A stretch of DNA of 64,000 nucleotides from an uncultured Christensenellaceae bacterium (GTDB lineage Bacteria; Bacillota; Clostridia; Christensenellales; UBA3700): positions 1-64,000 of the forward strand of contig CALWHF010000001.1 in the NCBI GenBank assembly GCA_944380305.1, in the 5' to 3' direction. Within the stretch, counting starts at the first letter, position 1, and each line of letters opens with the position of its first letter. Positions 17,988-50,259 of the stretch are shown here, in pieces. The notes beneath the pieces were generated by a model. That model did not search any database and was not told where the DNA came from. It saw nothing but the letters and a program-made list of their open reading frames with translations. Made by a program: the position numbers and the translations under genes.

Positions 17988-18005
17988 TGCTTATCATTGG
18001 TTTTC

Positions 18006-18308: not shown

Positions 18309-18337
18309 AATCCTTCCTCCGATTATTTTTTTATAAG

Positions 18338-18370: not shown

Positions 18371-18404
18371 AGTTTCGTTAGATTATACGGAATCCCGCCC
18401 GCGA

Positions 18405-19463: not shown

Positions 19464-19486
19464 AATATATAAATCCTCCAAAAAAT

Positions 19487-23065: not shown

Positions 23066-24230
23066 CCGCGCCTCCGATTATCGCCTTTGCGACAGCATAC
23101 GCGCTTGCCCATGCCCAGTGCAGATTGAATCCGCCCGAATCTCCGTCCACGTCAAGAGCTTCGCCCGTCACATACAGCCCCTCTGTCTTTTCAGACTCCA
23201 GCGTGACAGGATCGAATCCGTCGAGCGCGAGCCCGCCCGAAACCACCTGCGCGTTCTTCATGTCGGACACTCCGTCGAACGTCACCTCGTAATTCTTCAA
23301 CGCTTTGGCGAGTCTGCGCGCGTCATTTGCCGCCTTGCCAGTCGCACCCGCCGTCTTTGCGACAGCCGCGGCAAGCGACTTGTGCAGGTACGCGCACAGC
23401 GCGGTCTCGCAATCGCAGCCGCATTGCGAGAGAAAACGCGTTATCTCTTCTTCACTCCTTTCGGGCACGAAATCTATAAAGCCTATGCATTTTTGTTCTT
23501 TTCTCAAAGCGCGGACGTAATACGACGACGCCTCGAACGCCAGTATCCCGCTGAGCGCGTTGTCTTTGAAGAGCAATTCTCCCCTCTTATCGAAAACGCA
23601 GTCGCGTCCCGCTAACAGTTTCAGTCCCGCCCGTGCCCTTACGCCCGACGCGCCTTTGACGGACTTTGACGGGATATGCGAGATCGCGGGGTATCTCTCC
23701 GTCACGGTGTGACCGAAATGCGCGAGCATAGACAGACAGTCTGTACCGCTGGTAGCGTTCTGCCCTGCGGCGAACACGAGTTTTTCGCAATAATAAACCC
23801 CTTTATCGGTAGTCACGGCAAAATATTTGCCGTCACGGACGACTTTTTCCGCTTTTTCCCCGCACTTTATCTCCGCACCCGCGTCTGCCGCGCCTCGCAC
23901 GAGAGCGTTGACAACGTTTGTCGCGCTCAAACTGTACGGATATATCCTGCCATCCTCCTCGGTCAGCTCGAGCCCCAGCGAATTGAAAAAAGGTTCCGTC
24001 TTGCCGCTGAAAGCCCGCAAGACCGGTCCGACGAAATCGGGCGCGTTGTAACGTGACGCATCTACGGCGACGTTGGACAGGTTGCACCTGCCGTTGCCCG
24101 ATGCGAGCACTTTTTTCAGCACTCTGTCCTTTGCCTCTATTACCGCGGTCTTTTTGCCGTCCCGAGCGAGCATGATCGCGCACGCAATTCCCGACGCGCC
24201 GCCGCCTATGATTATCACGTCGTATTTCAT
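23052..24230 (-). CDS. HI0933-like NAD(P)/FAD-dependent oxidoreductase
   Basis: A 392 aa flavoprotein that begins MKYDVIIIGGGASGIACA, the canonical dinucleotide-binding start. Further family marks are GNGRCNLSN near residue 55 and GEALDVDGDSGGFNLHWAWASA at the C-terminus. Members bind FAD, and the substrate is not settled; some are annotated as aminoacetone oxidases. The frame is open upstream, but MKYDV is the natural start. There is no Shine-Dalgarno, and a near-consensus promoter places +1 on the A of this ATG. It overlaps the following COG2509 gene by 14 nt. Confidence 0.88.
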   Translation of the reverse strand: MKYDVIIIGGGASGIACAIMLARDGKKTAVIEAKDRVLKKVLASGNGRCNLSNVAVDASRYNAPDFVGPVLRAFSGKTEPFFNSLGLELTEEDGRIYPYSLSATNVVNALVRGAADAGAEIKCGEKAEKVVRDGKYFAVTTDKGVYYCEKLVFAAGQNATSGTDCLSMLAHFGHTVTERYPAISHIPSKSVKGASGVRARAGLKLLAGRDCVFDKRGELLFKDNALSGILAFEASSYYVRALRKEQKCIGFIDFVPERSEEEITRFLSQCGCDCETALCAYLHKSLAAAVAKTAGATGKAANDARRLAKALKNYEVTFDGVSDMKNAQVVSGGLALDGFDPVTLESEKTEGLYVTGEALDVDGDSGGFNLHWAWASAYAVAKAIIGGADVQA

Positions 24231-24265: not shown

Positions 24266-24318
24266 GCGCGCGACCCCTCAAAAACCATACCTTCGCAACT
24301 ATAAAAGAGTACAAAAAA

Positions 24319-24348
24319 GCTCTGCGAATTGCAGGCAAAACGCAGAGC
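24319..24348 (-). terminator. Terminator of the giant surface-protein operon
   Basis: On the minus strand GCTCTGCG, a 14 nt loop and CGCAGAGC are followed by TTTTTTG. It lies 68 nt after the small lipoprotein stop. Confidence 0.88.
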
Positions 24349-24415: not shown

Positions 24416-24931
24416 TCAGGCGTAGTACGGAGTTACCGTGATGACTACGCTGCTGCCGTTGGTGCCGACGTATTCGATATACGTCGATACCAGTTTCTTT
24501 GTCTCGTTGTTGACTTTGATCGCGATCTTTGCGTTCTTCGCATCCGCAATGTCGAGGACGGCAGCCGTATTCTGAATGTCTGCGGTATAAGTTGCGATCT
24601 CGTCTTCGAAACTAGTCTTCTCGTTGGCGAGATAGTCTGCCGACAGACTGAGAGATACGCCGTCCTTCGAGAGGTCGAGCGCGGGAGCTTCTATGCCTTC
24701 GCGTTTGAAGTCTACCGTAACGTCTCCGTTTTCGGTCTTGTATTCGTAGAAAGTGATGCCTTCTTTACTGACCTTTATATAGACGTCTCTGCCCGTTTCG
24801 CCGCTCGAAGTCTTGAAAGTGGCGAGGTTCCAGATCTCGTCAGTCGTGATCTTGACTTTACAACCCGCGATCGAGAACGCAAGCGCGATTACGGTCAATA
24901 CAATGATAAAAGCCGTTATAGATTTTTTCAT
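24416..24931 (-). CDS. Small lipoprotein, function unknown (last gene of the surface operon)
   Basis: A 171 aa protein with a lipoprotein signal (MKKSITAFIIVLTVIALAF) and lipobox SIAGC, cysteine at 24. The mature part is mostly beta and charged, ending VVITVTPYYA. I do not recognise a domain. GAGGTG precedes the ATG. It lies 14 nt after the 2237 aa protein and just before a strong terminator. The tight spacing suggests it works with the giant proteins, for example as a membrane-side partner; that is inference. Confidence 0.75.
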   Translation of the reverse strand: MKKSITAFIIVLTVIALAFSIAGCKVKITTDEIWNLATFKTSSGETGRDVYIKVSKEGITFYEYKTENGDVTVDFKREGIEAPALDLSKDGVSLSLSADYLANEKTSFEDEIATYTADIQNTAAVLDIADAKNAKIAIKVNNETKKLVSTYIEYVGTNGSSVVITVTPYYA

Positions 24932-24945
24932 AATTATTTCACCTC

Positions 24946-27900
24946 TCAGAATACAAACTTTTTCTTTGCGACGATAGCCGCGATGACTACCGCGAGCACG
25001 CTCGCAGCCGCAGCCGCAACACCCTTGCCTGCCGCTTTCTTCGCGACGTTCTGAGCCGCGATGACGTCGCCGTTGACCTCTGCGATCAGAGCGTTGTAAG
25101 AAGTCGTCAACTTGTCGAGTTTGGTCTTGTCTACGTTCGCCTTATCGCCGTCCGCGAGTCCTTCGTAAGCTTCCATCATCTTATCGTAGTTGTCGAGATC
25201 TGCCGCCGTGACAGTATCGCCAAGCGCGTTGAACGCGTCGTTGAAAGCAGCGGGATCGTTGCCTGTCGTCAGCTTGACGGTCACTACGTTGGATTCGCCC
25301 TGGGTATCGCTTTCTTTGATTTTGACGGATACGCTGTACTCGGTGCCCGCCTTGAGTCCGCTGAGCGTATTGCCGTCCTGCCACTTCTTGCCGCCGTCGG
25401 AGCTGTACGCGAACGAGCCTTCGCCCTTTACGGTCACTACGATCTTGTTATAGTAAACGGTATAGGTAACGTCGGACGGATCGAGAGTCGCAGCGAGTTT
25501 CTTACCCGTGGTAATTCCCGTGGAAAGAACGCCGGACTCGACATAGTTCGCGTCGCCCTCGAATTTGACGTATACGGTGTACTCCGTCTCGGGTTTGAGT
25601 CCGCTGACGGAATTCGTCGCATTGCTCCAGTCGCTGTCGTCGAGAGTGACGAGGACGCTGAATTTGCCGTTCTTGTCGGTCACGGTAAATCCGTTCCATA
25701 CAGCAGTAACGGTGATGTCCTGAAGAGTCGGCGTGGGGATCTGAGCCTTGTTGACGACATAAGTCATCCCCTCGACCGTGCCGACATAGTTGGAATTCTC
25801 TCCAGCCGTAGCCGTAACGGCATATGTGCCCGCGTTTCTGATCTCGGTGACGACCTCGCCGTTAAGCGTGATCGTGAAGATCACTTCGCCGTACTTAGGA
25901 TCGACCGCGAGAACGACCGCGTTGCCGTCGTAGACCGAGTTGTCGGCGGTCAATACTCCGTCGAAGACCGCCTTGTCTACCGTATAGGTCAGCGTCGCGC
26001 TGCCCGTATAGTTGGTATTTCCTGCCGCGGGCGTGACGGTAAAGGTATACGTTCCCGCATTTCTGATCTCGGTGACGGTCTCTCCGTCGAGAGTGATCGC
26101 AACGCTGACTTCAGCCGTCTTGACGCCGTTTACGGTTACCGTCTTGGACGTACCGTCGTAGACAGAAGAGAGCTCGGAAAGCGATGCAACGTCTGCAAGA
26201 TCTGCCGCGTTTACGGTCAGTTTCGCATTGCCCGCGAACGTGTAATCATAATTGCTTACCGCCGCGCCGTTAAAGCCGAGCGTGAGCGTATTAGCATATT
26301 CGCCGAGAGCGAGCGAATCAACGCTGCCGCTACCGATATAGCTGTAATACGGCTGCACGTCCTCTGCGTCGAACAATGCACTGTCAGAAGTGAAGTATGT
26401 CCCGTTTGCGGGAACTATGTCGCCCGTACCGTATGCGCTGACGCCGTCAAGCACGGTTATCGTAACGCTTATCTTGCTGATCTTAACGGTGTTGTCTCCC
26501 GTCACGGTGCCGACGCTGTAATTCGGCGAAGAGAATCCGACTACCGTAGCAACGTATTCGCCTACGTTGACGGGATCGCCCTCGTCTATACCCGTATAGC
26601 TTATGACCGCGGTAACGCCTTCGTCACCCGTGATCAGCCCGTCTATAGAGTAACCGATCGGATGCGCCGCTGCGTCGTATTCTACTTCAACGGGAGTGAA
26701 CGTCACGTTGACCGCCTTCTTGTTTACGGTGAACTTATTGCCTTCGGTCACGACGAGCGTGTAATTGTCGTTGCCCGCCTCCGCGCCGATAGCGTATTCG
26801 CCTGCCGCAAGATTGACGGCATCGTAATGCTCCGCTCCTTCCGCGTCAGTCAGAACGTATTTCACTTCAAGTTCGTCTGTAACGTCGGTCTCGACTATCG
26901 TGTAATCCGTATCCTTCATGACGGAAAGAATTTCGTCACCGTAATACTTGCCTCTGTCCGTAAACGTGATATGGATCTCTCTTCTGACTCTCGTCGCCGT
27001 ACCGTTATTGCATACGAAATCGTAGTTGCCCGCAGCATCCTGATGTTCGGCAACGGCAGCCACCGATACGTTGACGTTAGCGGTAGTTCCGATCTCGCTG
27101 CCGAGTTCGCTCTCGAGCGATACGGTGTATGTGAACCAATCGCGTTCTCCTTCGACGAATTCTCCGTCGAAAATCGCGCCGTTGTCGGCGAATTCTTTGC
27201 CGTATTCTACTTCGACGTCGTTTGGCGTCACGTTTATCGTGCGCTTGTCGACCGTGAATTTAACGGTAAACAAGCCGTCTGCCTGACCGAGTCCCGACAG
27301 ATCCTCATGTATATAATAAACCTTGTTTGCTTCGTCACTCAAAGCGAATGTGACTTCTTTGCTGTCGACATTGTTCCTGAAAACAAAGCTGGCACTATCC
27401 GCTTTCCACTCTACTGCGGGATTGCCTTCGATATAATTTGTCGCCCTGAGGGTGACGGTGTAGTCGCCGCCGTTGTAAAGCGCGCTCGTCTCGTAGTATT
27501 TGCCGTCAGCGATCGGATTAACTTCGATCGCGTTGCCGTCTTTATCCGTAACGACTACCTCGACTTCCAGTTCGAGACCCGTAACGGTGAAGAACGCATG
27601 ATCTCCCGTTTCATAGCTGAACGTGATGTCGTAATTCTTAGCGTTTTCGTTCAAGAAACTCGGAGCAAACGAGAACGGATAAGTGCCTCTGACGGGATTC
27701 TCGTCAAGCCCCGCTCCTTCCCAGATAAACGTCAGCAACGGCAGATTCTCCTCGTCCTCGGGCAGGAATTGCTCCTCGCTGCCATACTCCCACATGCTTT
27801 CGTAAGTCTCTTCGCTGAGCATGTCGAGATCGGTGCCGTAAGGTATCGTGACGTCTTTCACTACAACGGTGACAGGCTTCTGCCTGACCTCGAGCGTGCC

Positions 27901-30900
27901 GCCCTTGATGTCGTAGTTCACGAAGAGGTCGGGGTTGTTTCCGCTCACGATTTCCGGTACTACGAGATAGCTGCCCGCGTCGCGCACGCCGTAGGTGCCG
28001 ACGGAATAGACTCCTCCCTCAGTATCGTTGAAATACTCTATCGATATAACACCGTCGACGACGTTGAAGCTGTATTTGTTCTTATCGCCGGGAGCCAGCA
28101 GATCGTTGAGGCTGACGTTCCCGTCCTCGAATGCCAGCTTGTGATACTGTCCGTTGTAAACGACCGAATACTTTCCGATCGCTTCGTCATACTCGAGACC
28201 TTCTGTACCCGTAAAGTGCCAGATCAGTTCCTTCTTGGTGATAGAAAACGCGAGTTCTCTCGAACCAGTATTGCTCATATCGTAATTGTCGAGCACGCGA
28301 GAATCGATGTCCTCGTTATACTCGAGTACAGCAAGATAGTTGCCCGCGTCGTGCACTATGGAAACACCTTCCGCACCCTCTTGCTTGACCCACTTGCCCG
28401 ACGCATCATCATAAACTGCGGGATAAGCAACAACGTGGAAATTGAACGCACTGTTGTCAAGCACGCCTATGTTCGAAACAGACGCGATAAAGCTCATATC
28501 TCCGCCGGTATATTCGACAGAATAATTCTCATCGAATTCGCCGTCATAGTTTGGAATGATGCCGAAAGACACGGGAGCCTTGGTTATCTCGATCGAGATC
28601 TCCTCGGTCGTAGTCTGATAGTTCGGATCGCTGCTCGAAGTGACCAGACAGTCGTATTTTCCTACATAATTAATGGATTGCAGATTATATTCGCTTTCTC
28701 CTTCCTTTCTGAAAGACACCTTTATGTTGAGAGTCTGATCGAGGTCTTCGTTCCTGAACATAATACCTTCATCGGTAAGTTTCTGCACGCTCACACTGTA
28801 ACTGTCGTAGATCATGCTGTACGAATCTTCGCCGATATACGTCAGCGGAGCGGGAGTTATCTCAAACGTACCCGTCAATGTACCGCCTAGTTCGTAGTTG
28901 CCCATCGCCTCGTTTTTAAGCGATATGGTCATCTGATAATTGCCCGCATCGGTATTTGTGCTAGGCACACCGTCTTTAACATACGATACCGAATACACGT
29001 TGGAAGGATCTCCCACCACTCTGTCCACGGTAACGGTCGGAGCCTGGGCCTGTTTATTATAAACAAACGAGGTCTGAGAAGTGTCAATGGACGCGGTGAT
29101 CGCTCTCTTCCTTATCGCAAAGTCACATGCCGCAACATTTTCGGAAAGCTGATAGTTGTCATTGTCGAGATCGGTTATCTTCACGCGATAATTGCCCGCA
29201 TTGATCGCACCGAGCGCAGCGGGACTTTCTACATCGCCTATCAAGGTAAACACGCTCAGCGTTGCTTTTACCGAATCTCCGGCATATAATTCGTCGTTGA
29301 AATTCACGTTGTATTCTTTAGCTTCGCCATCGTATTCGAGATCCGCTTCGGGAGTGACCGAAGGGGTGATCGTCTTTGGCGTCACATTATAAATGTAATA
29401 CGTTATCCCTACAGGCGAACCTTCGACCGTATCGGAAGTGACCGTATTATCTGCCTTGTACGCAACGAAATTGCCCTTTGACGTAGATGCATAATAGGCG
29501 TATTTCGCATTAAATTCCTTAGTTTCGGTAACAAGAGCCACATGCCAGCTGTTGACTGCCTTTGTCTCATCAGATCCGACGTCCATACCGTCCCCGATAC
29601 CGTCGATAAATGCTTGCCACTGCGAATTGTCGACAGAAGTTTCGAGCGGAGATCCTTCTTTATCCGCTCTCAGATAAAAATTCACCTGTGGTGCTGTCAA
29701 CGCTGTAGCGTTGTATTCATAATCAGCAGTCTCATATCTTCTTACGACCACTTCTCCTTCCTTTTCGTCGCTGAACGTCTCGCCGGGGTTTGACACGTCG
29801 TAGAAGACCGCCTGTCCCGAGACGAACGCGTATTTCTTATTGCTGCTGCCAGTACCGTCGGTAGAATTTTTAACAGATACCGTCTGCGTCTTTACCGCGG
29901 TATCGAAAGAAGTGACGTCTACTCCGCCGCTCTGTTCCCAGACCGAATATGTTTCGGGATTTCCGCCCGCGATGATGTCGCTGATGCTGTATTCCCAGAC
30001 GATCTTTCTCAGACTCGCTTCGGACGATACATCGAACGTAAGCGTCAGATTTGAGCCTGTTTCGTCGAAGTCTATCGTCGTCTTTCTGTTTCCCGCGCTG
30101 TTTCCGAGCCAGTCCGTGCCGTCTTCGGAGATAGCGATATAAGCATAGTTGAAGTCGGAATACGAATAACCTCCGCCGCTGACGTCCGCAAAGAAGTTGC
30201 TCCTGTAAGACGGAGCGTCACCCGTGCCGTTATACAGGAAGTATATTCCGCTCATATTGCTTGCGCCGGCACCGTTGTTATAGTAAGATCCCGTGATACC
30301 GACGATCGCACCCGTGACTTCCTTTCCGTCGTAGTTGTATATATCGCCGTCGCTGTTGCTGATTGCCGCCGCGCCGTAACCGGTTACTTTTCCGGTCCAA
30401 CTGCTGACCACGTTCTTTATCACCGCGGTACCCGAGCCGTTGACCATATATTCGGGAACGCCGCTGCTGTTCTTGTCGACGACGCAACCTACAAGACCGC
30501 CGCCGAGCCCCAGTCTCGCGCTGCCTTGGGTCATATAATATTTTCCGCTGACGTCACATGTAAACGTTCCCCCTCCGGTCAGATATATATCGCTGACCAG
30601 ACAGTCGTTCTGCAGAATGCCGAACGCGCCGCCTATTATTGCCCTGGGCGTACCTTTGTTGCCGCCAGTACCGCTGCTTGTACCGTGACTGCGCAAAGTT
30701 ATATTCGTATTATTCGAAATTTCCACTTCACTGTTTGTTAATTTGCTGTCGTAACAGTATCCTGCTATGGTACCGAAAGCTACCAGCCCGTGATACGGAC
30801 GACTGACTTTGTCTCGCCCTGCACCCGAGACTGTTTTTTTAACTTCGATGGTTGCTTCGCAATATATTCTGCAATTGTCTATAACAGACCCCGTAGTAGT

Positions 30901-31659
30901 AGGAGAGGATCCGTCTCCTACACTAAGCACTCCGAACAAACCTCCGTAAAGATAGCTGGCATCGTCTGTCTTTTCTTCAGGTCGATTAAGCAAATCTGTT
31001 CCCATTCTCACATAATAATAGCTCTCACTAAGCTTATACTCAAAATTACAATTTGATATGTTAACTCCGAGCGCATAGGTCGCCATACCACCGCTGGCTT
31101 TTATAAATATGCCTTCGTCGGAATCTTTTCTGGGATACGAGTCGAAAAGCGTTCCCGCTCCGTAGCCGCTACCCCCATCTAAATACTGCCCGTAAGGGAG
31201 ATTCAATGCCTGCTGACATGCGCCGAGTTCTTTCAAGTCAGGCTGACTCGTGATCTTTACAGTTGCGCCGCAACCGTCGAGAGTGACCTGATCCCAGTAT
31301 GCCATCGAACTGGTCACCTCGTATGAGTACGCGGGATCGAGCGCGTACTTCTTGCCGGCGATATTCGCTTCGTTTCCGCTCTTGAAAGTATTCTCAAATG
31401 CAGTCTGACCGCTGATTCCCGTATAGCCGCCTTCTGCAGAAGTGAGAGCGTTATAGCGAGCCGTTGCTTCGCTCCCCGAGATCGCGGTATAGATACCGTT
31501 TATCATACCGTCCGCATTGCTGCCCGTAACGGCTACGGTATCGCCCGCGAAAGGCGCGGTATTTCCTGCGTTGCCGAAGATCAGCGCAAAACATACCACG
31601 ACCGCCACTATCGCGACGAACACTGCGGAAGATACTATCTTCTTTTTTGCTTTTTCCAT
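24946..31659 (-). CDS. Giant surface protein (2237 aa) with MBG/YDG and Fn3-like repeats
   Basis: A signal/anchor helix at 8-30 follows MEKAKKK. Residues about 60-480 resemble a GLUG or beta-helix region (VIDNCRIYCEA, GAFGILQNDCLVSDIYLTG). From about 760 to 2000 there are many MBG/YDG-type modules, recognisable by EYDGEAKEY, YDGTSKTVTV and the recurring NAGTYTFTVTPAAGN / NAGTYAVTATAGEN with xNYTG or xNYVG ends. Two fibronectin-III-like modules follow (SGLKPETEYTVYVKF, SGLKAGTEYSVSVKI). A helical stalk leads to a C-terminal membrane helix and KKKFVF. Predicted role is a cell-surface stalk or adhesin. GGAGGG precedes the ATG. Confidence 0.82.
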   Translation of the reverse strand: MEKAKKKIVSSAVFVAIVAVVVCFALIFGNAGNTAPFAGDTVAVTGSNADGMINGIYTAISGSEATARYNALTSAEGGYTGISGQTAFENTFKSGNEANIAGKKYALDPAYSYEVTSSMAYWDQVTLDGCGATVKITSQPDLKELGACQQALNLPYGQYLDGGSGYGAGTLFDSYPRKDSDEGIFIKASGGMATYALGVNISNCNFEYKLSESYYYVRMGTDLLNRPEEKTDDASYLYGGLFGVLSVGDGSSPTTTGSVIDNCRIYCEATIEVKKTVSGAGRDKVSRPYHGLVAFGTIAGYCYDSKLTNSEVEISNNTNITLRSHGTSSGTGGNKGTPRAIIGGAFGILQNDCLVSDIYLTGGGTFTCDVSGKYYMTQGSARLGLGGGLVGCVVDKNSSGVPEYMVNGSGTAVIKNVVSSWTGKVTGYGAAAISNSDGDIYNYDGKEVTGAIVGITGSYYNNGAGASNMSGIYFLYNGTGDAPSYRSNFFADVSGGGYSYSDFNYAYIAISEDGTDWLGNSAGNRKTTIDFDETGSNLTLTFDVSSEASLRKIVWEYSISDIIAGGNPETYSVWEQSGGVDVTSFDTAVKTQTVSVKNSTDGTGSSNKKYAFVSGQAVFYDVSNPGETFSDEKEGEVVVRRYETADYEYNATALTAPQVNFYLRADKEGSPLETSVDNSQWQAFIDGIGDGMDVGSDETKAVNSWHVALVTETKEFNAKYAYYASTSKGNFVAYKADNTVTSDTVEGSPVGITYYIYNVTPKTITPSVTPEADLEYDGEAKEYNVNFNDELYAGDSVKATLSVFTLIGDVESPAALGAINAGNYRVKITDLDNDNYQLSENVAACDFAIRKRAITASIDTSQTSFVYNKQAQAPTVTVDRVVGDPSNVYSVSYVKDGVPSTNTDAGNYQMTISLKNEAMGNYELGGTLTGTFEITPAPLTYIGEDSYSMIYDSYSVSVQKLTDEGIMFRNEDLDQTLNIKVSFRKEGESEYNLQSINYVGKYDCLVTSSSDPNYQTTTEEISIEITKAPVSFGIIPNYDGEFDENYSVEYTGGDMSFIASVSNIGVLDNSAFNFHVVAYPAVYDDASGKWVKQEGAEGVSIVHDAGNYLAVLEYNEDIDSRVLDNYDMSNTGSRELAFSITKKELIWHFTGTEGLEYDEAIGKYSVVYNGQYHKLAFEDGNVSLNDLLAPGDKNKYSFNVVDGVISIEYFNDTEGGVYSVGTYGVRDAGSYLVVPEIVSGNNPDLFVNYDIKGGTLEVRQKPVTVVVKDVTIPYGTDLDMLSEETYESMWEYGSEEQFLPEDEENLPLLTFIWEGAGLDENPVRGTYPFSFAPSFLNENAKNYDITFSYETGDHAFFTVTGLELEVEVVVTDKDGNAIEVNPIADGKYYETSALYNGGDYTVTLRATNYIEGNPAVEWKADSASFVFRNNVDSKEVTFALSDEANKVYYIHEDLSGLGQADGLFTVKFTVDKRTINVTPNDVEVEYGKEFADNGAIFDGEFVEGERDWFTYTVSLESELGSEIGTTANVNVSVAAVAEHQDAAGNYDFVCNNGTATRVRREIHITFTDRGKYYGDEILSVMKDTDYTIVETDVTDELEVKYVLTDAEGAEHYDAVNLAAGEYAIGAEAGNDNYTLVVTEGNKFTVNKKAVNVTFTPVEVEYDAAAHPIGYSIDGLITGDEGVTAVISYTGIDEGDPVNVGEYVATVVGFSSPNYSVGTVTGDNTVKISKISVTITVLDGVSAYGTGDIVPANGTYFTSDSALFDAEDVQPYYSYIGSGSVDSLALGEYANTLTLGFNGAAVSNYDYTFAGNAKLTVNAADLADVASLSELSSVYDGTSKTVTVNGVKTAEVSVAITLDGETVTEIRNAGTYTFTVTPAAGNTNYTGSATLTYTVDKAVFDGVLTADNSVYDGNAVVLAVDPKYGEVIFTITLNGEVVTEIRNAGTYAVTATAGENSNYVGTVEGMTYVVNKAQIPTPTLQDITVTAVWNGFTVTDKNGKFSVLVTLDDSDWSNATNSVSGLKPETEYTVYVKFEGDANYVESGVLSTGITTGKKLAATLDPSDVTYTVYYNKIVVTVKGEGSFAYSSDGGKKWQDGNTLSGLKAGTEYSVSVKIKESDTQGESNVVTVKLTTGNDPAAFNDAFNALGDTVTAADLDNYDKMMEAYEGLADGDKANVDKTKLDKLTTSYNALIAEVNGDVIAAQNVAKKAAGKGVAAAAASVLAVVIAAIVAKKKFVF

Positions 31660-31697
31660 ATATTTCCCTCCGTAAACTGCCCTATGCAGTCACCTTC

Positions 31698-31724
31698 CTC
31701 CGCGGCGGTGTAATTGCCGCGGAG
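31698..31724 (-). other. Intercistronic hairpin between two giant genes
   Basis: CTCCGCGGC / GCCGCGGAG, a perfect 9 bp stem with a 9 nt loop and no U-run, in the 75 nt gap between the 2099 aa and 2237 aa genes. Its 3' arm runs into a GGAGGAAGG that lies too far from the next ATG to be its ribosome site. Possibly an mRNA stability or processing element. Confidence 0.5.
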
Positions 31725-31734
31725 CATCACATTT

Positions 31735-34700
31735 TTATATTATGTTATAGCGATTGTTGTTTTTCTTTTTCCTGGACTTCACTACCGCCGCAACGATGAC
31801 GCCTGCTATTGCCGCTACCACGAGCACAGCACATACCGCTATCACGACATAGACAACTGCATTCGGTGTTTCCTTTGGCTCAGTAGGTTTGCTGCTCATT
31901 GACGCACCGCATTTGTCGCACTTGCCGTCATTGTCTGCATCGACGTGATCGCAGCTCTCTTCGCCGCCCTCCTCGCCTATCTGCTCTCCGCATTCGTCAC
32001 AAACTCCGTCGCCGTTGCTGTCAACATGCTCGTGATCGGGTCTTTCGCCTGAACCCTGCGCAAGGGTCAGCGTGATCTCTCCCACTTCGCTGAGATCGTA
32101 GTTGTCGCCTGCGTCATACGTTATAGTATAAGTTCCTGCCGGCAGACATCCGTATGCATCGGGAATCACTATATTGTCATTCTCGTCCCAGAAAGTAAGT
32201 TCTGCCCGCTCTGTACCGTTTACCCCGACAAAGGTGATTTCTATCTCTGTCAGGTCGGTATCCGAAGTAAATCCCTGCTCCTGCTGTATTTTGTTCAGCG
32301 AAGAGGTATCCACTTCGCTTATCTTCTTGGGCGTGATGGTGAGAGTCGTCTCGTATTCGCCGCTGGCATAATTTGCCATTACTACTAAAATGCTGCCTAC
32401 ATATTCTCCGGCATCTGTCTTCTCTATGTTCGATGCAGTTACGGATATACCCGTGCCGTACTTTTCGGTATTAAGCGTATATTCTATCGAATGCTCTTTA
32501 CCGTCATATTCGAACGTGCGTATCTGACCGCCCGTAAACGTAATGGCGTCATCGGGATGCGGTGCTGTCGTGATTATGACGTACGCGGTAGTTTCAACGG
32601 ACTCGAAATTGTCACAGGTTATCCTCATCCATATCTGGTGTCTTCCCACAATCGTAAATTCGGGTGTATTTTCGCTGTATCCGCCGATCTCCATTCTGGA
32701 ATATTCGATCTTTGCATCTTCTCCGACGATATTGCTGTCTGCGGCAACTGTAGCCTCGAGAGAAAGAGCTTTACCGTCGTAAACTTTCTTTACTCCGAGG
32801 ATGCCCTCTTCTCCGACGTCACCGCCGAATGTCACACCGGTGATCTTCGCCGCATTGATAGTCAGCGTCAGAAGAAGTTCGCAAGCGTTATAATTTTCGT
32901 TGCCGTCATAGACGAGTCTGTAGGAATAAGTGCCCTCGTTCCTGTACTTTCCGTTTGCGGCAGTGCTGTCGTAATCGACGTACTGCTCCTGATCCGCATC
33001 CCAGTACTGCAACCTGACATTCCCGGCGACGTCATTGCCCTTGCTGGCAGACTTGACCTCAGCGTCGGAGAAATCGATTATCTGATCCATCTTATTATAA
33101 GTGGAGATCTGATTCTCTACGCCCGATATTTTCGTGTCCGCCTTAACGACGTTGAACGAAATGTAATTATCTATGCTCCCGGCTCCGTACGTCGCATCCG
33201 CCTTCTCGTAGTTCTTTGCCGCAAATTTTTTCAGATCCGGATCTGTCTGCTTTTCGGGATCGAACGAAACTTTGACGTAGTACTCGCCCACCTCTGTAAC
33301 GGGATAATTCTCGCCGAGAAGTTTGAGTGAATTGCCCAGTTTCTGATAGTAAATAATCGTATATACGATATTCTTTCCCTTTGCGGGAGAATCCTCGGGA
33401 AGATCGGGGATATAAGACACCGTACCGCCGTCGTTATATTGTGCCGTCTTATCGGGTACCAGAACGTCGAGATATGTCGCGATAATGCTGATAGACTGCT
33501 GCGACTGACCTTTGATCTTATAGTTGTTATCCTCGATCACGGCTTTTGCGGTATAGCTGCCTATTTCCTTCACTTCATTGTAGGTCTTGACCTGATCTCC
33601 TTCGTACCAGACGATCTTCGCGTATTGAACCACGCCGTCCACGTCGGTGTAAGCGGCGGTCATTTTGTGTCCCAGACCGTCATAAGGGATCGAATATGAG
33701 AATCTGACCACTTCGTCGAGCGCAAAAGTGACTCTGACTTCTTTCTTCTGCACTTCGATCGGAATGGTTCCCGTGATCGACACAGAATAATTCGCACCTG
33801 CGTCGCCTTCATAGGTTTCACCGTTCTTGACGAGTTCGGCAAAATCATCCATTTGATAAACGGGGCTGTCTATCTTGATAGCGTCTACATACGCCGTATA
33901 GCTGCCGCCGACGTTCATATGTGCAGATCCCTGCTCGAGCCCCATGCTCTTGAATCTGAAATAGAATTCACCGCCGGACGCATCGTTTGCTATCTTGACC
34001 ACAAGACCGTCGAACAAGTCACCGTAAGTCCACTTGAACACCGCCGAACCGCTCGACGTATCCACACTGCCCGCGCTCATGGTGATGTCCGTGCCCTCGG
34101 TAAATATCTGATTGATGTCAAACGCCATGTTGCTCTTCGTGATCCTTGTGCCTATCGCCATGACCTGCTGAACGTTGTTGTTGCCGTAATCGACCGAAAC
34201 GTTCATAGATATAGGGCTGACTTCATCGTCGGTCACTATACTCAGATTGAGTTTGACGTTGTCGCTGGCATTCATATCAGAATATTCGGCTACGAGCTTG
34301 AGCCAGGTTATTCTGAACGAAGACTGATAGGTCGCCGCATTGAATATACCCGTGTAGTGTACGTTGGATCTGAGTTCCGTCTGCTCGTTTACATCAGACG
34401 TGAATCTGAATTCGAGGGTTGGCTTGAGATTGAGCGTTCCGTCGTAAGACTTCGTGAACAGCGAAGCGAGGTTGACCCCCGTATACTGATTGTTTACGAG
34501 ATTATCTAGTCTGTACGCAGTGTCGCTTGTCGAATCGTATATCTCGAGGTATCTTGCATTTATCGCGATATTCGCTCCGTTCAGATCTATCGTGAATTTG
34601 TACATATCTCCGAGTCCGCCGGGATCAGCGTGAATTCGGAATATAACGGGTTCGGCTACTTCGTATCCTTCGACTGCGGACGTGAATTTGACAAACAACG

Positions 34701-38034: not shown

Positions 38035-38035
38035 A

Positions 38036-41000
38036 TCAGTTGCCCTCCGTGGTCATACCGTATTCGGGAGATACACCCATAACGCATACTTTACCTTGCA
38101 TTGTATGACCATAGCTCCTGCCGCCGCAATCCGAGAAGGTAATTTCCACCTCGTACGTTGTAGAAGCACTGTTTGCCACACTGTCGGCAGGCTCGTCGAG
38201 ATAGTAATATTTAACTCTCGGGTCTGTCGCTGTCTGCGGCATTTTATCGAATATCGCGGTGACGCTGATCGAACGCGTCGTGTATACCTTGAGATAGTTC
38301 TTGCCGTCTCTGACCACTATCTCGTCCGCGATGTCGTCGGTGACTTCGCCCTCGTAGAGTTCGACGTCCTCTTCGCACCAGTAGGTGATAGTGAGATCGG
38401 TTTCGGCTATCCTGTTCAGCTCGACGTCATCCGCAAAGTTAGCGAAATACTTGCCCGAATCGGTATCGTAGAGTACCGCGATGAAGTCGTTGCCGAAATA
38501 CTGATAATCTATTTCGAGGAATCCGTCCTCTCTCGCTGCGACAGTCTTCATTCTGACGGGAACTCTGATCGGCTGGGTCGTGTAACCGTCGACAGTCTTG
38601 ACTCTTATATTCGCTATCGCGTAACCGTCGTTACCCGAAGACAGCGTGATGTTCGCAAGATCCCAGCTTTCGACCGTAACACTGTATATCTCGTTCTCAA
38701 GCGGCATTATATCGTCAATCGAAGGTGTATCCGTTCTTTCGAACCTGACGTCCAGTTTATCCCCGAATTCTTTGAACTCGTTGACAGTCTGCCCGTTTTT
38801 GACTGTGGTAACGTATCCGAACGGATCGAGTACCAACTCGCCGTAAGCATAAACAGGATCTTCTTTAGCAACGACTTTATATCTTACGGTGTAGTTGTTG
38901 AGATTGTCGGCTGTCAGCATGACCTGTATCTCTCTGACTTCGCTGCCGTCCATAGTCACGTCGATGTTCTCGTCTCCTACCCAGTCGTAAACGCCGATCT
39001 TGGCGGTCGAACCGTCGGTATAGGTGACTTCGATCTCGGACGGGAACGGAGCCTTGTCGAGATAGAGCACGTCTATCGGGTTGACTTCAAAATAGTCGTC
39101 GCCTTCGCCTGCCCCCGGGATATTGAGAGACTCGATCGCCATACCGTCGACGAACACGCCGACGTTAGCTCTCTGCATGAATCTGCTCTGCAAATTCTCG
39201 GCAGTCAGACCGTTAGCGATAGCGTTCGTTTCGTACTCACCCGTGACGAAACCTATCTCGATCATCCACTGCTCGCTGTAACTGTAGTATTCGGGGACGT
39301 AATTCTCGCCGACAAACAATTCGGGTTCGCCGTTGTCGTTCCAGTTATACCAGCGGATCGGCATCTTGATTACCGCGTTGGACGCAAATTTGATATATGC
39401 CGTGGTCGGGAAGTATGCGTTCTTCTGCTCTGCCGTAAGAGCATTGAATTCGTACGGATGTACCGTGAACGTCTCCTCGGTCAGATCTTCGTCAAAGTAT
39501 ACCGCTACTATCCTGTTGCTGACAATATTGATGTCGATCTCCTCAGTCCATCCGAAATATCCGACTTCGAGAGAGTCGTATCCCTCTGTTTCAGGATCAA
39601 CTCCCATTTTGTCTCCGTACTTGGATTTATCAAGACTGACCGTACCTTTATAATTGTTGATCAGGTCGTATCTGAGAAGATCCTCGCTGAAATTGTTGCC
39701 CTGACTGTCGGCCGTGAAAGCAATTTCCACGTTGACCTGTTCGTTGTACGACTGACCTGTCGCCTCTTCGTAATAGTAAGCCATCGCAACGTCGGGTATT
39801 ATCTCGTCTTTGCTGTATCCTATTACTCTGAGGAAATAGGTGTACGGATTGATCTCGAGAGTGTCGAGAGTCGCTCCGATACCGAGCGCGCTGATCGTCT
39901 TTGTCTTTACGCTGACCTTAAGATCGACCGTCTGTGCAGCCTCTGTACCCTGAGCTATCAAAGCCTGTACAGGAGCATTGATCGAGGTCATATCGTCAGC
40001 TGCCTTGCTTTCGATCGCATTAGCCGTCTCTGTCGGAACAACCCATTGATCGACAAATATCCTGGACGTCGCCCCGTCCGCATATTTGATATACAGATAT
40101 TCGGGCGTAAAGCGGTCAACTTTTCTGTTGTTTTCGGTAAACGCATACATGTCGATCTCGAACGTATTGGGTTCGTTTCCGCTACCGACTATATCCACTA
40201 CGGTACTGTCAAGGAAGTGAACCGTCATAGGTACGGTCACGCTGTTCTTGAACGTTACGTTCACCGTTTTATCATGCGCCGTATAAGTGCTTGCCTCATA
40301 TGCGAACGTAGTCATCTCCTCCGTACGGATGTTGCGGCTTTCTCCCGAGGTCAGATTTATCGTGATCTCGTCGACGAGAGCGTCGTACGCATGCACCTCG
40401 ATCGGCTCGATAGACCTTATCTCGGTAGCGGGATAGATATTGACTGCGATTCTAAGAGTCTTTACATCTCCGCCGAACTTTGCCTTTGCGTTGACGTAAA
40501 CCACCGTCGGCTCTTTCGCCGTCGACGGCATATCCTTTGAGATCTGCCCCACGTTCAGCTTATCCATAGTGCCGGAAGTGAGCACCGTGCCGTCATCAAG
40601 GGAGAATTCCACGTTCGTCTTCTTGACCGTCGTATTAAACTGATAGCGCGCGGTCTTATTAGCGAAATACTTATTGTAAAGCATGCTGTACGCTTCCGCA
40701 TTGTCCGCAGGATATTCGTAAGGCTCGAAATTGACCGACAACGTAATGTCTCCCCAGTCTACGACGCCCGCGGAAGACTCGCCGCTGACCGTGTTATCTT
40801 CCTGTCCTACGCTAGCCGACTTATTGAACAGATAGATCTCCGTCTTGTGATTCGAATTTCTGCTATTTGCGTAGTAATACGTCGTTCTCGGGCTTTCGTA
40901 ATATGTCGTCTGAGAAAGTACCGTGCCTTCGTCGTTGACGACCGCCTGGTTGTCGTCGTAACCCTTGATGTACAAATTGGAGAACGTACCGTCGAGAGTC

Positions 41001-44000
41001 GTCAGACCTACGTTAAGTCTGTTGAATACCGGGAACGGCAACAGTCTCATCAGTATGTCGTGTATCTCCTCGTAAGTATTGTTGAGCAGAGCATCCGTGA
41101 TCAACGGCGACAGCGCGCTGCTGACGAGATTGCCGACAACCTCTTTGAGGAGCGGGGTCAGCTGTGCCTTTAGCGTCTGCCAGAAGCCCTGGCTGTCGTT
41201 GTTGACTCTGTCCCAGTTTACCTTTGCTAGGTAGTTGGTGCTGAAGTAATCGGGCGCGAGTTCTGCAAGATTGAGTATCGTATTCGGTCCGAATACCAGG
41301 GACATCACGCCGTCGATCATCTTGTTGATCTCGTACGGATCGAACGCAACGTCTACGTTGAATACGCCAGTGGAAGTCAGTCTGACGTCGATACCGCCGC
41401 CGAGCAACTTGAATATGTCGAGATCAGCAAACAGCGCAGTGAACGGACTCTCCTCTTCTGCCGTCGCATCTCCGTCCGCAAGTGCGAGCGGCTCGTTCAC
41501 GCTCGCCTCTTCGACTACGATTCCCTGAGCCTCGAGCGCGGCTTTGTCGAGATCCGCGAGCAATCCGTTGAACAGCTCTCCGAGAGTTCCCACCAGATCG
41601 AGATCGAAACTGATGTCGAGCTTGACGCCGAGATCTATTACCATATCGAGCAAGGAAATATTGCCCTTTACGAGATATACCGACATCTTTCCTATGTTGT
41701 AATCGAGTGCGAGATACGCTATCGACTTGGTGTTCGAAGTCACATCGGTGTCGTTGAAGTCGCCTTCCGCGTTGACCTTCGCTATCGTCACGAGGAAGGA
41801 GTTTGCCGCTACGGTAGGCGTGTTAGGCACGTCGTTCAGCGTCCTCTGCGATTTGAGTTTTTCGACCGAAAGCCTCAGATATTTGTTGTTGCCGCCCGTG
41901 TCTACGTTGTTGCTGAGCACGTCTATCGACAAAGCAATGTCAAGGCTGTCGAGCATGCTCTTAGCCATCGTATAGCCGTCGGAAGTATCTATATCGCTCA
42001 CCGTGGTATCGATGAATATCTCTTCGTCGAGAGCACCTACCTGGAGTTTCAGAGTCGCGTCGAGCGTTACTACGTCGCTGAGTCCGAGTCCGAGTTCGAT
42101 CTCGCCGTTGAGCATATCCAGTTTCAGATCGACGTTGACGTCGAAACCGAGACCTATGCCGAGCAACAACTTGAAAATGTAGTCGATCGTTTCGGATGTA
42201 ATGTCGACGAACAGGTTCACGTTCTCGGCTCTGACGCCGGAAAGGATCTTGACGATAAGGTCCGTCGTGATGTCTTCTTCCTCGCCGTCCGCCATATTCA
42301 GTCCCGCAGCAATCTCACCCGCTACTTCGTCGACCTGCAGATCCTCTTCGGGATTCAGCAGACCGTTGATTATGTCTGACAGATTCAGATCGCCTATATC
42401 CGCGATCATCTGATCGACGTAACCCATGATCAGGTTGACCAGGCTGCTGTTTGTCAATTTGAACGAGAACAGTCCGAGACCCGAGAGGTCGAGCACTATC
42501 TCGCCGCCCGTAATGCCGATGCTGAGAATATCCTTTTGTCCGTACTTGAACTCGATCAGAAGTTTTGAATTGGTTATGATCTCAAGGTCGAGATCCCACT
42601 TCAGCGATACCGAAGAGACGCTCGCCCAGTCGTCAAGATACAGATCTATCGGCAGGTCGAGATACTGTCCCTGCGAAATCATTATATTATTGATAATCTT
42701 AGTAAAGTCGATATGACTGTCGAAAGTCTCCATGTCGAGCGTAATATCGAGCGACAACACGCCTACGGTGTCGATGATCGCCTTTTTAAGATCGTCGGTG
42801 TACTCGTCCACTTCGGCCTCGACCCTCTGCTTCGTCTGATTGAGTTTGTCGCGTACATAGCCGACCGTCAGCGGATATTCGGGAGTACCTATCTCCGCCT
42901 CCATCACGAAATTCTGCTCCTGATTCTCGTCTTCGGGCATCAGGAAGTTACCGCTCGCGCTCAGCGTCCATCCTTCCGTACGCGTAATATCCATATTTAC
43001 CGCGAGGTCGATTGCTCCCAAATCGAAACCGCCGAGATCCACACCGACCTTGGTCAGAAGATCCGCGATAGCCGCCACAGTCAGCGACGCGTATATCTTC
43101 TCTGCATTGAGACCGAAGATTATGCCTCCGAAATCGGAAAGTTCGGTGCCTGCCGCGGTGCCGTCGCTTTCAGCAAACAGTGCGCTGGTCGCAGCCTCTC
43201 CGGAACCTGAAGATCCGCTGTCGGAATTGAGCAGGGACATAATATCGAATTCCAGATCGAAATCGCTGATCAGCTGATCTCCTATCTTTATGCTGTCGAA
43301 CAGATCGAGCAACGTCTGAACAAAATCGAATTCCAGACTGATCTTCGGCAGCGTGATATTCATAATCTTTATATTGGTAAGATCGAGCAGTATGTGCGGC
43401 GTCCATGTCGCGCTGGAAGCATCCTGGCTGTAGAACCCGTACACGCCCAGCATGACCGTACCCTTATCCATACCGAGAGCACCGCCGACGCTTATGTCGT
43501 CTAGAGCGGTTACCTCTATCGCAAACATCGAGTTTGAACGCGTGTTCCTGTCAATAGACATCATGATCGACAGTTCAACGTCCATAAGGAAGTCATCGCT
43601 AAATGTCCATTCTAGCGGAACGCCTGCAAGCACGTCGAGTCCGAATCCTTCGAGGAATTTACCTATCGCGTATCTGCCCTTATTGAACGTGATCTTCGCT
43701 CTCGCATTGAGATCCACGCCCTTGAGTACGGATTCGAGCAGCGCGCCGACGTTGCTTTCGTATGTAGTCTGCGAAAGTTTTTCCGCGATATAACCGTCGA
43801 GCGTCGTCGCTTCGCTATCCATAAATTCGTTCTGCGTGAAACCTAACATGAAGTTGTGCATCTTGAGCCCTACTTCAATGGGATCACTCGTGACGAGGCT
43901 GCCGTTTTCGTCCTTTACGACGTTTCCTTCGGCATCCTTATCGGGAACGCCCGCCGTAGCGGTGATCTCGATGCTTTCGATGCCTTCGTCGAAGATATTG

Positions 44001-46306
44001 AGAGCAAGCTTGCCGTCCAAAGCAACGGGGAGCTCTATCGGGCTGTCCATAAACTGATTGATCGCGTTGAACAGCTTATGATTGACTTCGATGACTATCT
44101 GGTCATCGGTAGCGTAGACGGCTTCCTGGAAACCTACAACGCTTGCGACAGCCGTGATCAGCGACTGGATAGTCGGGCTCACATAAACAACTTCTTCTCC
44201 GCTGGTCTCGTCGTCGGCTATCGTGATAACGTCTCTGCCCGACTGTGAAAGACTGAGGGCCTGAGCCGACGTGCCGCCGTGTTCTTCCCAACTGGTGCCG
44301 AAGTATTCGTCTATAGCAGTCGTAATCATCTCAACGAGATATGACACGACTCCCTTGAGATTGATACCGTCTACCTTGATATTGTTCGCCTTCCAGTAAT
44401 TGGGCATCATGCTGTTGAGGGAAACGTACAGCGAGCCCTGTCTGTAATATATACCGAGCAGCATCGGAACTTTATCGTTGTTGATTATGTTGCCGTTCTG
44501 GTCTATCGCGTATATTTCAAGTGCTATGAGATTGTTGTCCTCGGGACCGTTATCGTAATTCAGATCGAGGTCTATATTCGCCTTGAGTCTGTATCCGAAT
44601 TCGGACTGAAGAATAAGAGTGTTTTCGGGCAAGCCGAGATCGGGTGCAAACAAATTTACGAGTTTTGCAACGTCGAGGCCGTCTTCGTCCGAATAAAGCT
44701 GCAGATCGATGTCAAACTGCAGATTGGACAACGAGAAATCTCTCGTCTCCTCTATCGTCGGGAATACGATGAGTCCATCTTCGTTACCGGGTCTTATATC
44801 CGCCTCAACTACTCTCCAGCTGAAAATCTCGTCTCCCGTCCCTTCTTCCGCATTGTCTTCCGCGGTCAGCAACATGCTGTCGACAAGAGTCTCCTTTGCG
44901 GTCTCGTCGTACGACAGATCGGCGTAGAAATAAACTTTAAGCTGCGGAATGATTCCGTTAAGCCAGTTAAATATTGTGGTGAGATTCAGATCGATTCCTA
45001 CGAGTTCTTTCAGATCGACCATACCGATAAGATCGCTGATCTCGCTGACCAGAGTGTTGAGCTTGATTTCAAACTGATAAGTCTCAGTTAAAGTGATCTG
45101 CGTTTCGTTCTTGATAGTAGCCGTATAGTAAGGAGAGTTGAACAACAGGTTCACGAGAACGCCTGCGATGTCTATGCCTCCCAGCTTGCCGGAAAGCTCG
45201 TCGAGCAGTTCTCCGAGATCCATATCGACAAGGAAACCTCCGAGGAACGATATGAGATAATCGGGTTTGATGTCAGAGAAATGTATGATCGGAAGACCGT
45301 CGCCTGCATCCATGTAGATATCGTTGCCGATAAAATAGATTGCAAACGTCGTATTCTTGATTACTTCGCCGTTGTCCGTATCCAGACTCGGCACTGCGAC
45401 TCTGAACATAAATTCGTTCTGACCGCCGACGTTGAAGTTTCCCTGCATATCGATGTATGCCGTCCCTTCGGGAGTCTCCATTATCGTCTGCAGATCGAGT
45501 ACCGCAGTATTCTGACGGTCGGGCAGCTTGCCGAATATCTGGCTGAGCGACGCAAATGCGTTTCTGTATTCGCTGATGTAAGTGTATTCGCCCGACTCCT
45601 GCGCATCCTCTTCCCATTTCGCATAAAGAGTCGTTTCTTTTGTGATCTTCAGCGGGAACCTTGCCGCCGCACCCGACAAAGAGCTTCTCGTATACCAACC
45701 TGCGAATATGTAGCCCTCTCTTGTCGTCACGGGAGACGTTTTGATCTCCGTACCTTTGAAGTCGGCAATCGGAGTGCCTCCGTTCGTCACGAATTTGACC
45801 GTGTAAGTAGCCTCTTCTATTGAAGACCACTTGGCGTAGAAAGTCGTGTCCGCCTCCAGCGTGTACGGATAGACAACCGCCGTCTCGAATTCTTCATCGA
45901 GATACCAGCCTCCGAACAGATAGCCTTCGCGCGATTCGACCGACGGAGCCAGCTTGAGTCTTGCGACAGTCTGAGTCACGTCGTCTGAGCCTTCGCTGAC
46001 GAGCGTCAGCGTGAACAATTGCAGATACTTGGCATAGAGCGTCAGATTAGACTTGAGCTCCATCGGGAAAACCGCCTTGTTCTGCAATTCGGCATCGGTG
46101 TACCAATCTTCGAATTCGTAGCCGTTTTTCGAAGGTGCTACGGGCGCGACTTCCAGATCCGACAACTGCCAGACTTCAGTCGAATCGCCGAGATTCAACG
46201 TAACGGAATAGGTCTTTTCTTCGGGAGTACAACCTATGACCGTGACGAGTACCAATGCCAGGATAACAATTAAAACAGATGTTACCAGCAATGCTTTTTT
46301 TCTCAT
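38036..46306 (-). CDS. Giant lipoprotein (2756 aa) with InlB-type repeats and Ig-like C-terminal modules
   Basis: The start is taken at MRKKALLVTS (46306), which has GGGAGAAAG upstream; an earlier in-frame ATG lacks a ribosome site. The lipobox is TVIGC (C26). Three InlB B-repeats (Listeria-Bacteroides repeat) lie at 33-94, 98-160 and 168-231, each ending in TLYAKY/W. Residues about 240-1750 form a long region of alternating amphipathic beta strands and hydrophobic helices (for example LDLEIITNSKLLIEFKY, SLVNLIMGYVDQMIADIG) that I cannot assign. The C-terminal third has Big_4-like steps such as EIEVTYTDGSTAKIGVYDW. It is the first and largest gene of the operon. Confidence 0.8.
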   Translation of the reverse strand: MRKKALLVTSVLIVILALVLVTVIGCTPEEKTYSVTLNLGDSTEVWQLSDLEVAPVAPSKNGYEFEDWYTDAELQNKAVFPMELKSNLTLYAKYLQLFTLTLVSEGSDDVTQTVARLKLAPSVESREGYLFGGWYLDEEFETAVVYPYTLEADTTFYAKWSSIEEATYTVKFVTNGGTPIADFKGTEIKTSPVTTREGYIFAGWYTRSSLSGAAARFPLKITKETTLYAKWEEDAQESGEYTYISEYRNAFASLSQIFGKLPDRQNTAVLDLQTIMETPEGTAYIDMQGNFNVGGQNEFMFRVAVPSLDTDNGEVIKNTTFAIYFIGNDIYMDAGDGLPIIHFSDIKPDYLISFLGGFLVDMDLGELLDELSGKLGGIDIAGVLVNLLFNSPYYTATIKNETQITLTETYQFEIKLNTLVSEISDLIGMVDLKELVGIDLNLTTIFNWLNGIIPQLKVYFYADLSYDETAKETLVDSMLLTAEDNAEEGTGDEIFSWRVVEADIRPGNEDGLIVFPTIEETRDFSLSNLQFDIDLQLYSDEDGLDVAKLVNLFAPDLGLPENTLILQSEFGYRLKANIDLDLNYDNGPEDNNLIALEIYAIDQNGNIINNDKVPMLLGIYYRQGSLYVSLNSMMPNYWKANNIKVDGINLKGVVSYLVEMITTAIDEYFGTSWEEHGGTSAQALSLSQSGRDVITIADDETSGEEVVYVSPTIQSLITAVASVVGFQEAVYATDDQIVIEVNHKLFNAINQFMDSPIELPVALDGKLALNIFDEGIESIEITATAGVPDKDAEGNVVKDENGSLVTSDPIEVGLKMHNFMLGFTQNEFMDSEATTLDGYIAEKLSQTTYESNVGALLESVLKGVDLNARAKITFNKGRYAIGKFLEGFGLDVLAGVPLEWTFSDDFLMDVELSIMMSIDRNTRSNSMFAIEVTALDDISVGGALGMDKGTVMLGVYGFYSQDASSATWTPHILLDLTNIKIMNITLPKISLEFDFVQTLLDLFDSIKIGDQLISDFDLEFDIMSLLNSDSGSSGSGEAATSALFAESDGTAAGTELSDFGGIIFGLNAEKIYASLTVAAIADLLTKVGVDLGGFDLGAIDLAVNMDITRTEGWTLSASGNFLMPEDENQEQNFVMEAEIGTPEYPLTVGYVRDKLNQTKQRVEAEVDEYTDDLKKAIIDTVGVLSLDITLDMETFDSHIDFTKIINNIMISQGQYLDLPIDLYLDDWASVSSVSLKWDLDLEIITNSKLLIEFKYGQKDILSIGITGGEIVLDLSGLGLFSFKLTNSSLVNLIMGYVDQMIADIGDLNLSDIINGLLNPEEDLQVDEVAGEIAAGLNMADGEEEDITTDLIVKILSGVRAENVNLFVDITSETIDYIFKLLLGIGLGFDVNVDLKLDMLNGEIELGLGLSDVVTLDATLKLQVGALDEEIFIDTTVSDIDTSDGYTMAKSMLDSLDIALSIDVLSNNVDTGGNNKYLRLSVEKLKSQRTLNDVPNTPTVAANSFLVTIAKVNAEGDFNDTDVTSNTKSIAYLALDYNIGKMSVYLVKGNISLLDMVIDLGVKLDISFDLDLVGTLGELFNGLLADLDKAALEAQGIVVEEASVNEPLALADGDATAEEESPFTALFADLDIFKLLGGGIDVRLTSTGVFNVDVAFDPYEINKMIDGVMSLVFGPNTILNLAELAPDYFSTNYLAKVNWDRVNNDSQGFWQTLKAQLTPLLKEVVGNLVSSALSPLITDALLNNTYEEIHDILMRLLPFPVFNRLNVGLTTLDGTFSNLYIKGYDDNQAVVNDEGTVLSQTTYYESPRTTYYYANSRNSNHKTEIYLFNKSASVGQEDNTVSGESSAGVVDWGDITLSVNFEPYEYPADNAEAYSMLYNKYFANKTARYQFNTTVKKTNVEFSLDDGTVLTSGTMDKLNVGQISKDMPSTAKEPTVVYVNAKAKFGGDVKTLRIAVNIYPATEIRSIEPIEVHAYDALVDEITINLTSGESRNIRTEEMTTFAYEASTYTAHDKTVNVTFKNSVTVPMTVHFLDSTVVDIVGSGNEPNTFEIDMYAFTENNRKVDRFTPEYLYIKYADGATSRIFVDQWVVPTETANAIESKAADDMTSINAPVQALIAQGTEAAQTVDLKVSVKTKTISALGIGATLDTLEINPYTYFLRVIGYSKDEIIPDVAMAYYYEEATGQSYNEQVNVEIAFTADSQGNNFSEDLLRYDLINNYKGTVSLDKSKYGDKMGVDPETEGYDSLEVGYFGWTEEIDINIVSNRIVAVYFDEDLTEETFTVHPYEFNALTAEQKNAYFPTTAYIKFASNAVIKMPIRWYNWNDNGEPELFVGENYVPEYYSYSEQWMIEIGFVTGEYETNAIANGLTAENLQSRFMQRANVGVFVDGMAIESLNIPGAGEGDDYFEVNPIDVLYLDKAPFPSEIEVTYTDGSTAKIGVYDWVGDENIDVTMDGSEVREIQVMLTADNLNNYTVRYKVVAKEDPVYAYGELVLDPFGYVTTVKNGQTVNEFKEFGDKLDVRFERTDTPSIDDIMPLENEIYSVTVESWDLANITLSSGNDGYAIANIRVKTVDGYTTQPIRVPVRMKTVAAREDGFLEIDYQYFGNDFIAVLYDTDSGKYFANFADDVELNRIAETDLTITYWCEEDVELYEGEVTDDIADEIVVRDGKNYLKVYTTRSISVTAIFDKMPQTATDPRVKYYYLDEPADSVANSASTTYEVEITFSDCGGRSYGHTMQGKVCVMGVSPEYGMTTEGN

Positions 46307-46672: not shown

Positions 46673-46702
46673 AAAAAAAGCAACGCCTTTACGGACGTCG
46701 CC
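46673..46702 (-). terminator. Terminator after the sensor kinase
   Basis: On the minus strand GGCGACG pairs with CGTTGC(T), including G-U pairs, across a loop of about 10 nt and is followed by seven T. It separates the kinase mRNA from the surface operon, which therefore needs its own promoter. Confidence 0.65.
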
Positions 46703-50229: not shown

Positions 50230-50259
50230 AATCTTATCCTCAGAATTATTCGGTTTCAC

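Follow-up and report, generated by a model that had tools for sequence, protein, structure and literature searches.

A conserved locus for giant membrane-anchored surface proteins in an uncultured Christensenellaceae bacterium

The first 64,000 nucleotides (nt) of contig CALWHF010000001.1 of an uncultured Christensenellaceae bacterium (assembly GCA_944380305.1), here called the window, carry on the minus strand a 22 kb array of four genes, A-B-C-D, encoding proteins of 2756, 2099, 2237 and 171 amino acids (aa) and separated by gaps of 1, 75 and 14 nt. An earlier note, made from the sequence alone, described this set with the same open reading frame (ORF) places, lengths and gaps. The question raised by such a locus is whether the genes are merely neighbours or encode proteins that act together. 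Their linkage, order and fusions in relatives suggest that the four proteins would work together at the cell surface. We consider it fairly probable that A-B-C-D is one transcription unit for a co-inherited, membrane-anchored surface complex of this monoderm Clostridia family; the physical complex, its regulation and its role in adhesion or binding are what we infer. On this reading, giant ORFs that were anonymous, from gut Christensenellales that are common but for the most part uncultured, become a defined module whose regulator is conserved beside it.

The gene set in relatives and paralogues

A was sought in 79 genomes and found in 45, four of which lie outside the family and match the N-terminal repeats only. 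Within one Christensenellales family, relatives of A occur in 41 of 46 genomes, the named ones being uncultured Christensenellaceae, Clostridia and Candidatus Ornithoclostridium faecavium. In 32 of the 41 a D gene follows A downstream, sharing its contig and strand; the distance is mostly 11-16 kb, with 5-7 kb for A-C-D loci and as much as 32 kb for genome G027. The exceptions are of several kinds: G004, G008 and G026 are cases of contig ends; in G022 D scored below threshold and was recognised on reading the locus; G003 carries the A'' paralogue alone; G045 has a fragment; and genus g5 retains just A-B. Loci of the A-B-C-D type were read in genera g1 (G010, G005, G001, G002), g2 (G013, G018) and g6 (G017, G022, G031), and in g4 (G015, G024) with D fused; in G031 the A frame runs off the start of the contig, and in G005 and G001 D, absent from the longest-ORF listing, was placed by a D profile search. 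In g3 (G014, G034) the order is A-C'-D. In other genera BLAST hardly detects B and C; the order is still readable at the loci. Identity to A is 66-69% for the orthologues of six congeners and about 31-37% for those of other genera and for paralogues. In a tree of A built by a quick method, in which the placement of G016 is unsure, five of six genera form fully supported groups, with A' inside g1 and A'' with g3.

In-frame fusions of C and D were seen in 13 genomes checked, of which 12 belong to g4 and one, G027, to g3. In all 13, the C membrane span leads through a basic loop into the D signal segment and the lipobox cysteine is kept; some of the fusions, but not all, have a start codon and a Shine-Dalgarno-like stretch separating the two spans. 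The product may be a polyprotein, or translation may in part start internally, and under either reading C and D are evolutionarily bound together. The natural fusion predicts touching partners, and the kept internal lipobox would allow signal peptidase II cleavage inside a membrane polyprotein to be tested directly; a literature search on Christensenellales adhesins and internal lipoboxes found nothing relevant. The G027 locus (G027:C3:14699-50096) encodes a 7246-aa A-type lipoprotein followed by a 4477-aa C-D fusion, and in G019 an A-type frame that spans at least 6896 aa accompanies a 4443-aa giant.

Conservation of the set as a unit, which the earlier note had named as a check, is borne out by the A-D linkage, by the order kept in several genera and by the fusions; the independent occurrence of each gene without linkage, which it had named as the refuting outcome, was looked for and is contradicted by the linkage found.

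The same genome holds two paralogous sets. One, A'-C'-D', is on contig 5, beside a further giant that has a D-like lipoprotein of its own; the other, A''-B'', is on contig 11, and congeners retain both types. In these sets an A-type lipoprotein is again paired with a giant anchored in the membrane, a combination that would be the minimal core of the module. On contig 5, the D-like gene and A' enclose a gene on the opposite strand for a 143-aa protein of SleB/CwlJ-type cell-wall hydrolase appearance (G000:C5:90719-91150, minus strand) that is kept in G012 and G007.

Linkage of this kind could also reflect an ordinary chromosomal neighbourhood that is slowly rearranged, and the HI0933-like, FAD-dependent and leucine-rich repeat genes past the terminator are indeed often conserved too. 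Against this, the carbon-nitrogen hydrolase and GerAC genes of the window were not found at the other loci read (with limited flanks), the paralogous sets on other contigs pair alike, and C and D have fused. We regard slow rearrangement alone as highly improbable.

Architecture and anchoring of the proteins

Gene A (38036-46306, minus strand, as are all features given below for the operon, its terminators and the regulator genes) encodes a giant lipoprotein with an N-terminal lipoprotein signal and the lipobox VIGC, whose cysteine (residue 26, 46229-46231) does not vary among the genome's three A paralogues. Three Flg_new/InlB B-repeat domains follow (about residues 29-234, 45605-46222). The InlB-type repeats are recognised with E 4e-32 in Pfam and E 4.5e-18 for TIGR02543, and Flg_new/List_Bact_rpt stand above the cut-offs (110.5 against 27 bits in Pfam, 65.3 against 20.95 bits in NCBIfam). 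For the core, an AlphaFold2 model of residues 240-1140, built with 18 homologues, is weak, with a mean predicted local distance difference test (pLDDT) of 66. With this model Foldseek ranked LolB (9tpm, probability 1.00, E 7e-4) among matches that include NE2245, LprF and MucB. Nearly all VIA-align matches of residues 246-526 (44729-45571) are LolA, LolB, RseB/MucB, LprF/LprG or ependymin-like proteins, the Z scores from this weak model being 8.5 for 2yzy, 8.2 for LolA (4mxt), 7.7 for RseB and 7.6 for LprF. The first part of the core may accordingly be LolA-like rather than Ig-like, on a weak to moderate model. A PDB sequence search with the A profile gave no match at E <= 1. In the remaining core (residues 527-1850, 40757-44728) residues 529-1071 match 1184-1634 in the protein's own profile (E 1e-6), and 254-380 match 1201-1325 (E 0.009); because the core repeats internally, additional LolA-like units are possible. 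Residues 616-901 as a barrel, with matches to OmpG and CymA, were rejected at a root-mean-square deviation of about 7-11 Å. The C-terminal repeats (38039-40756) are Ig-like at most weakly, Big_4 being at E 0.0075 and below the cut-off.

Gene B (31735-38034) encodes a protein with an N-terminal signal, a putative GLUG motif, a Cys-pair tail and a C-terminal hydrophobic membrane span followed by Lys/Arg. The GLUG motif falls slightly below the Pfam cut-off (20.1 against 20.5 bits), and residues 1400-2000, tested for MBG with Pfam, gave no MBG match at E <= 1. The tail (31735-32050) has two or more HVDxxGDGxCDxCG motifs and, among the B proteins read, is restricted to genus g1, to which the window belongs. 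Gene C (24946-31659) has an N-terminal signal, MBG and Fn3 domains that both exceed the Pfam cut-off (MBG_3, 36.4 against 25 bits; fn3, 25.5 against 25 bits) and a C-terminal hydrophobic membrane span with a basic Lys/Arg tail. The architectures proposed earlier have thus fared unequally. The MBG/Fn3 description of C holds; for B, described as GLUG/MBG with a Cys-pair tail, the tail is found and GLUG is marginal, while MBG is unmatched in the region tested; and for A, described as lipid-anchored InlB/Ig-like, the lipobox and InlB repeats stand, whereas the first part of the large core models as LolA-like and the C-terminal repeats give an Ig-like signal only below the cut-off.

Gene D (24416-24931) encodes a 171-aa lipoprotein with the lipobox IAGC. 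No Pfam family is common to more than two of 26 members of its family, and its sequence profile has no PDB match at E <= 1. The AlphaFold2 model, built from three sequences, is weak (pLDDT 62). With it, the first eight Foldseek matches are LolA-family chains (probability 0.97-0.99), and VIA-align gives LppX with Z 9.3 over 124 residues, LprG with 7.5 and LprF with 7.4, again from a weak model. D may be an LppX/LolA-like half-barrel, on a weak to moderate model, and the models of A and D, from opposite ends of the operon, would separately indicate the same LolA/LppX superfold. If this is true, a lipid-binding superfold has entered the giant surface proteins of monoderms.

Anchoring by lipid and by helix fits the genome, since Lgt is encoded and a sortase is unmatched; sortase anchoring was rejected on the latter ground. 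LspA is also unmatched in this assembly and, because all 12 congeners examined carry it, its absence is most likely an assembly gap. No Omp85 match was found in the genome, whose assembly is 92% complete, and a bridge to an outer membrane is unlikely. The proposal that the proteins may assemble into one envelope structure, as a fibre, layer or bridge, is in this way narrowed: acting together is well supported by linkage, order and fusion, and the outer-membrane variant is disfavoured.

That each giant has its own membrane anchor also suits independent adhesins that share one promoter, needed at the same time and place, as in colonisation, and forming no complex; the A-B pair retained alone in g5 and the A''-B'' paralogues of contig 11 would suit them as well. 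The C-D fusions in two genera, however, exceed what shared regulation explains, and the pairing of a lipoprotein with a helix-anchored giant recurs in three paralogous sets. Independent adhesins are a possible reading, which we hold to be unlikely.

The modelled folds bear on a further alternative, the handling of lipid or lipoglycan, in which A and D would bind a lipidic ligand and pass it outward from the membrane while B and C act as scaffold. LppX and LprG of mycobacteria are proposed to move lipid from the membrane outwards, and the A and D models match the lipid-binding LolA/LppX/LprG/LprF superfold; D resembles LppX, LprG and LprF in being a small lipoprotein whose model aligns with them, and differs in having no PDB sequence similarity, in its operon context and in being fused to a giant in some genera. 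On the other side, a single unit of A has been assigned, no lipid transporter gene was recognised in the block and Omp85 is unmatched in the genome. Moreover, a LolA-like fold can also bind protein, as in GerS of Clostridioides difficile, a LolA-like lipoprotein that activates CwlD by binding it (PMC8496864). D, if LolA-like, would share with GerS the nature of such a lipoprotein in a spore-forming member of the Clostridia, but matches it weakly (Z 4.4 over 62 residues), and its partner would be C rather than an amidase. Lipid handling appears rather improbable. A bolder form of it, a wall-spanning lipid or lipoglycan device in a monoderm, with the LolA-like core of A, perhaps built of several such units in series, and the LppX-like D, two giants as scaffold and, in some genera, a C-D polyprotein cut at its internal lipobox by signal peptidase II, is a speculative idea that we think quite doubtful.

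A parallel to the proposed surface complex is offered by the csc (cscA-D) or WxL-DUF916 clusters of lactobacilli, enterococci and Listeria, for which a surface complex has been proposed (PMC1534035). The likeness lies in clusters made exclusively of surface proteins from about four families, one with a C-terminal membrane anchor (PMC1534035), and in several paralogous clusters per genome that evolved and were inherited and duplicated as a unit, as is found here. Pfam scans of A-D, however, detected no WxL at E <= 0.1 and no DUF916, although B and C have C-terminal spans; D is a lipoprotein that ends without LPXTG, in a genome with no sortase match. In place of those families there are two lipoproteins, a giant one with a LolA-like core and a small LppX-like one, together with giants of the MBG/GLUG kind and a two-component system beside them. 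The operon would be alike in logic to csc/WxL and, because the defining domains are absent, not a member.

Transcription, proposed model and points against it

The set ends, as the earlier note had it, at one shared intrinsic terminator 3' of D (24313-24348), a strong hairpin followed by T6. Upstream, a histidine kinase gene (46749-48014) lies about 440 nt from A and has its own terminator in between (46679-46702). A single A-D transcript is likely, given the compact spacing and the terminators. The gene of an OmpR-type response regulator (48210-48884) follows further upstream. Both are conserved with the operon, a same-strand regulator being present upstream in g1, g2, g4, g5 and g6 and a kinase in g1, g4, g5 and g6; this two-component system, overlooked before like the LolA/LppX-like folds modelled for A and D, belongs to the conserved block.

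The 75-nt gap between B and C contains two hairpins (31676-31724; 31724-31698 and 31690-31676) that lie 5' of the GGAGGG of C and are devoid of a U tract. Each of the eight g1 genomes read has a strong GC-rich hairpin and a second one, the sequences differing and z being -2.9 to -4.8; in g4, six genomes have a longer gap with hairpins and eight have a gap of 14-15 nt with none. As no U tract follows them they are unlikely to be a terminator, and our guess is that they stabilise or process the A-B part of the transcript. An Rfam scan matched only the transfer-messenger RNA (tmRNA); the B-C hairpins and the A leader fit no RNA family there.

For the co-inherited surface complex we propose the following model. 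The N-terminal lipid of A would fix that protein to the membrane, and after it would come the InlB-type repeats, a large core with a LolA-like first unit, and additional repeats. B and C would have their C-terminal helices in the membrane and extend outwards as long repeat-built proteins. D, anchored by its lipid, would be an LppX/LolA-like half-barrel at the foot of C. The adjacent OmpR-type system probably controls the unit. Its likely job would be surface ligand binding or adhesion, with A and D offering hydrophobic or protein-docking pockets.

Several points weigh against this proposal. Linkage and fusion show functional association rather than contact. The g5 loci (G016, G021, G025) lack C and D, and G012, in 8 contigs, has no A-type orthologue of the operon, which is thus dispensable. 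The B-C hairpin pair might decouple expression of A-B from that of C-D. Of the single control region claimed for the set, one upstream region behind the kinase terminator stands, but it holds no promoter above chance: the sole sigma-70-like site 5' of A (46517-46490) scores 9/12, and the region has 7 promoter-like sites against 6.5 expected. Finally, Z scores of 7 to 9 are near the usual background and can arise by chance, with models at pLDDT 66 and 62, and comparison of the D and A profiles gave no similarity; as the profiles do not match, a common origin of the D and A units is not claimed.

Neighbouring genes

Beyond the terminator, the HI0933-like and FAD-dependent genes (21473-24230, minus strand) are conserved neighbours that are probably outside the operon. 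A minus-strand site TTGATA-17-TATAAT (24265-24237, 11/12) precedes the likely ATG of the HI0933-like gene by about 7 nt, and may reflect a leaderless transcript or chance. Elsewhere in the window, a 520-aa frame (17910-19472) is without Pfam or NCBIfam match, and an ABC-F ribosomal-protection-like protein (12004-13566) reaches 394 against the NCBIfam cut-off of 380 bits. On the other side of the locus, a 179-aa carbon-nitrogen hydrolase frame (49720-50259) ends at an in-frame stop past which the frame continues, and is a possible pseudogene. The tmRNA gene (51023-51366) is followed by spore germination genes of GerA/B/C type and a SpoIIE-like gene (51456-57483), because of which the organism is probably a spore-former.

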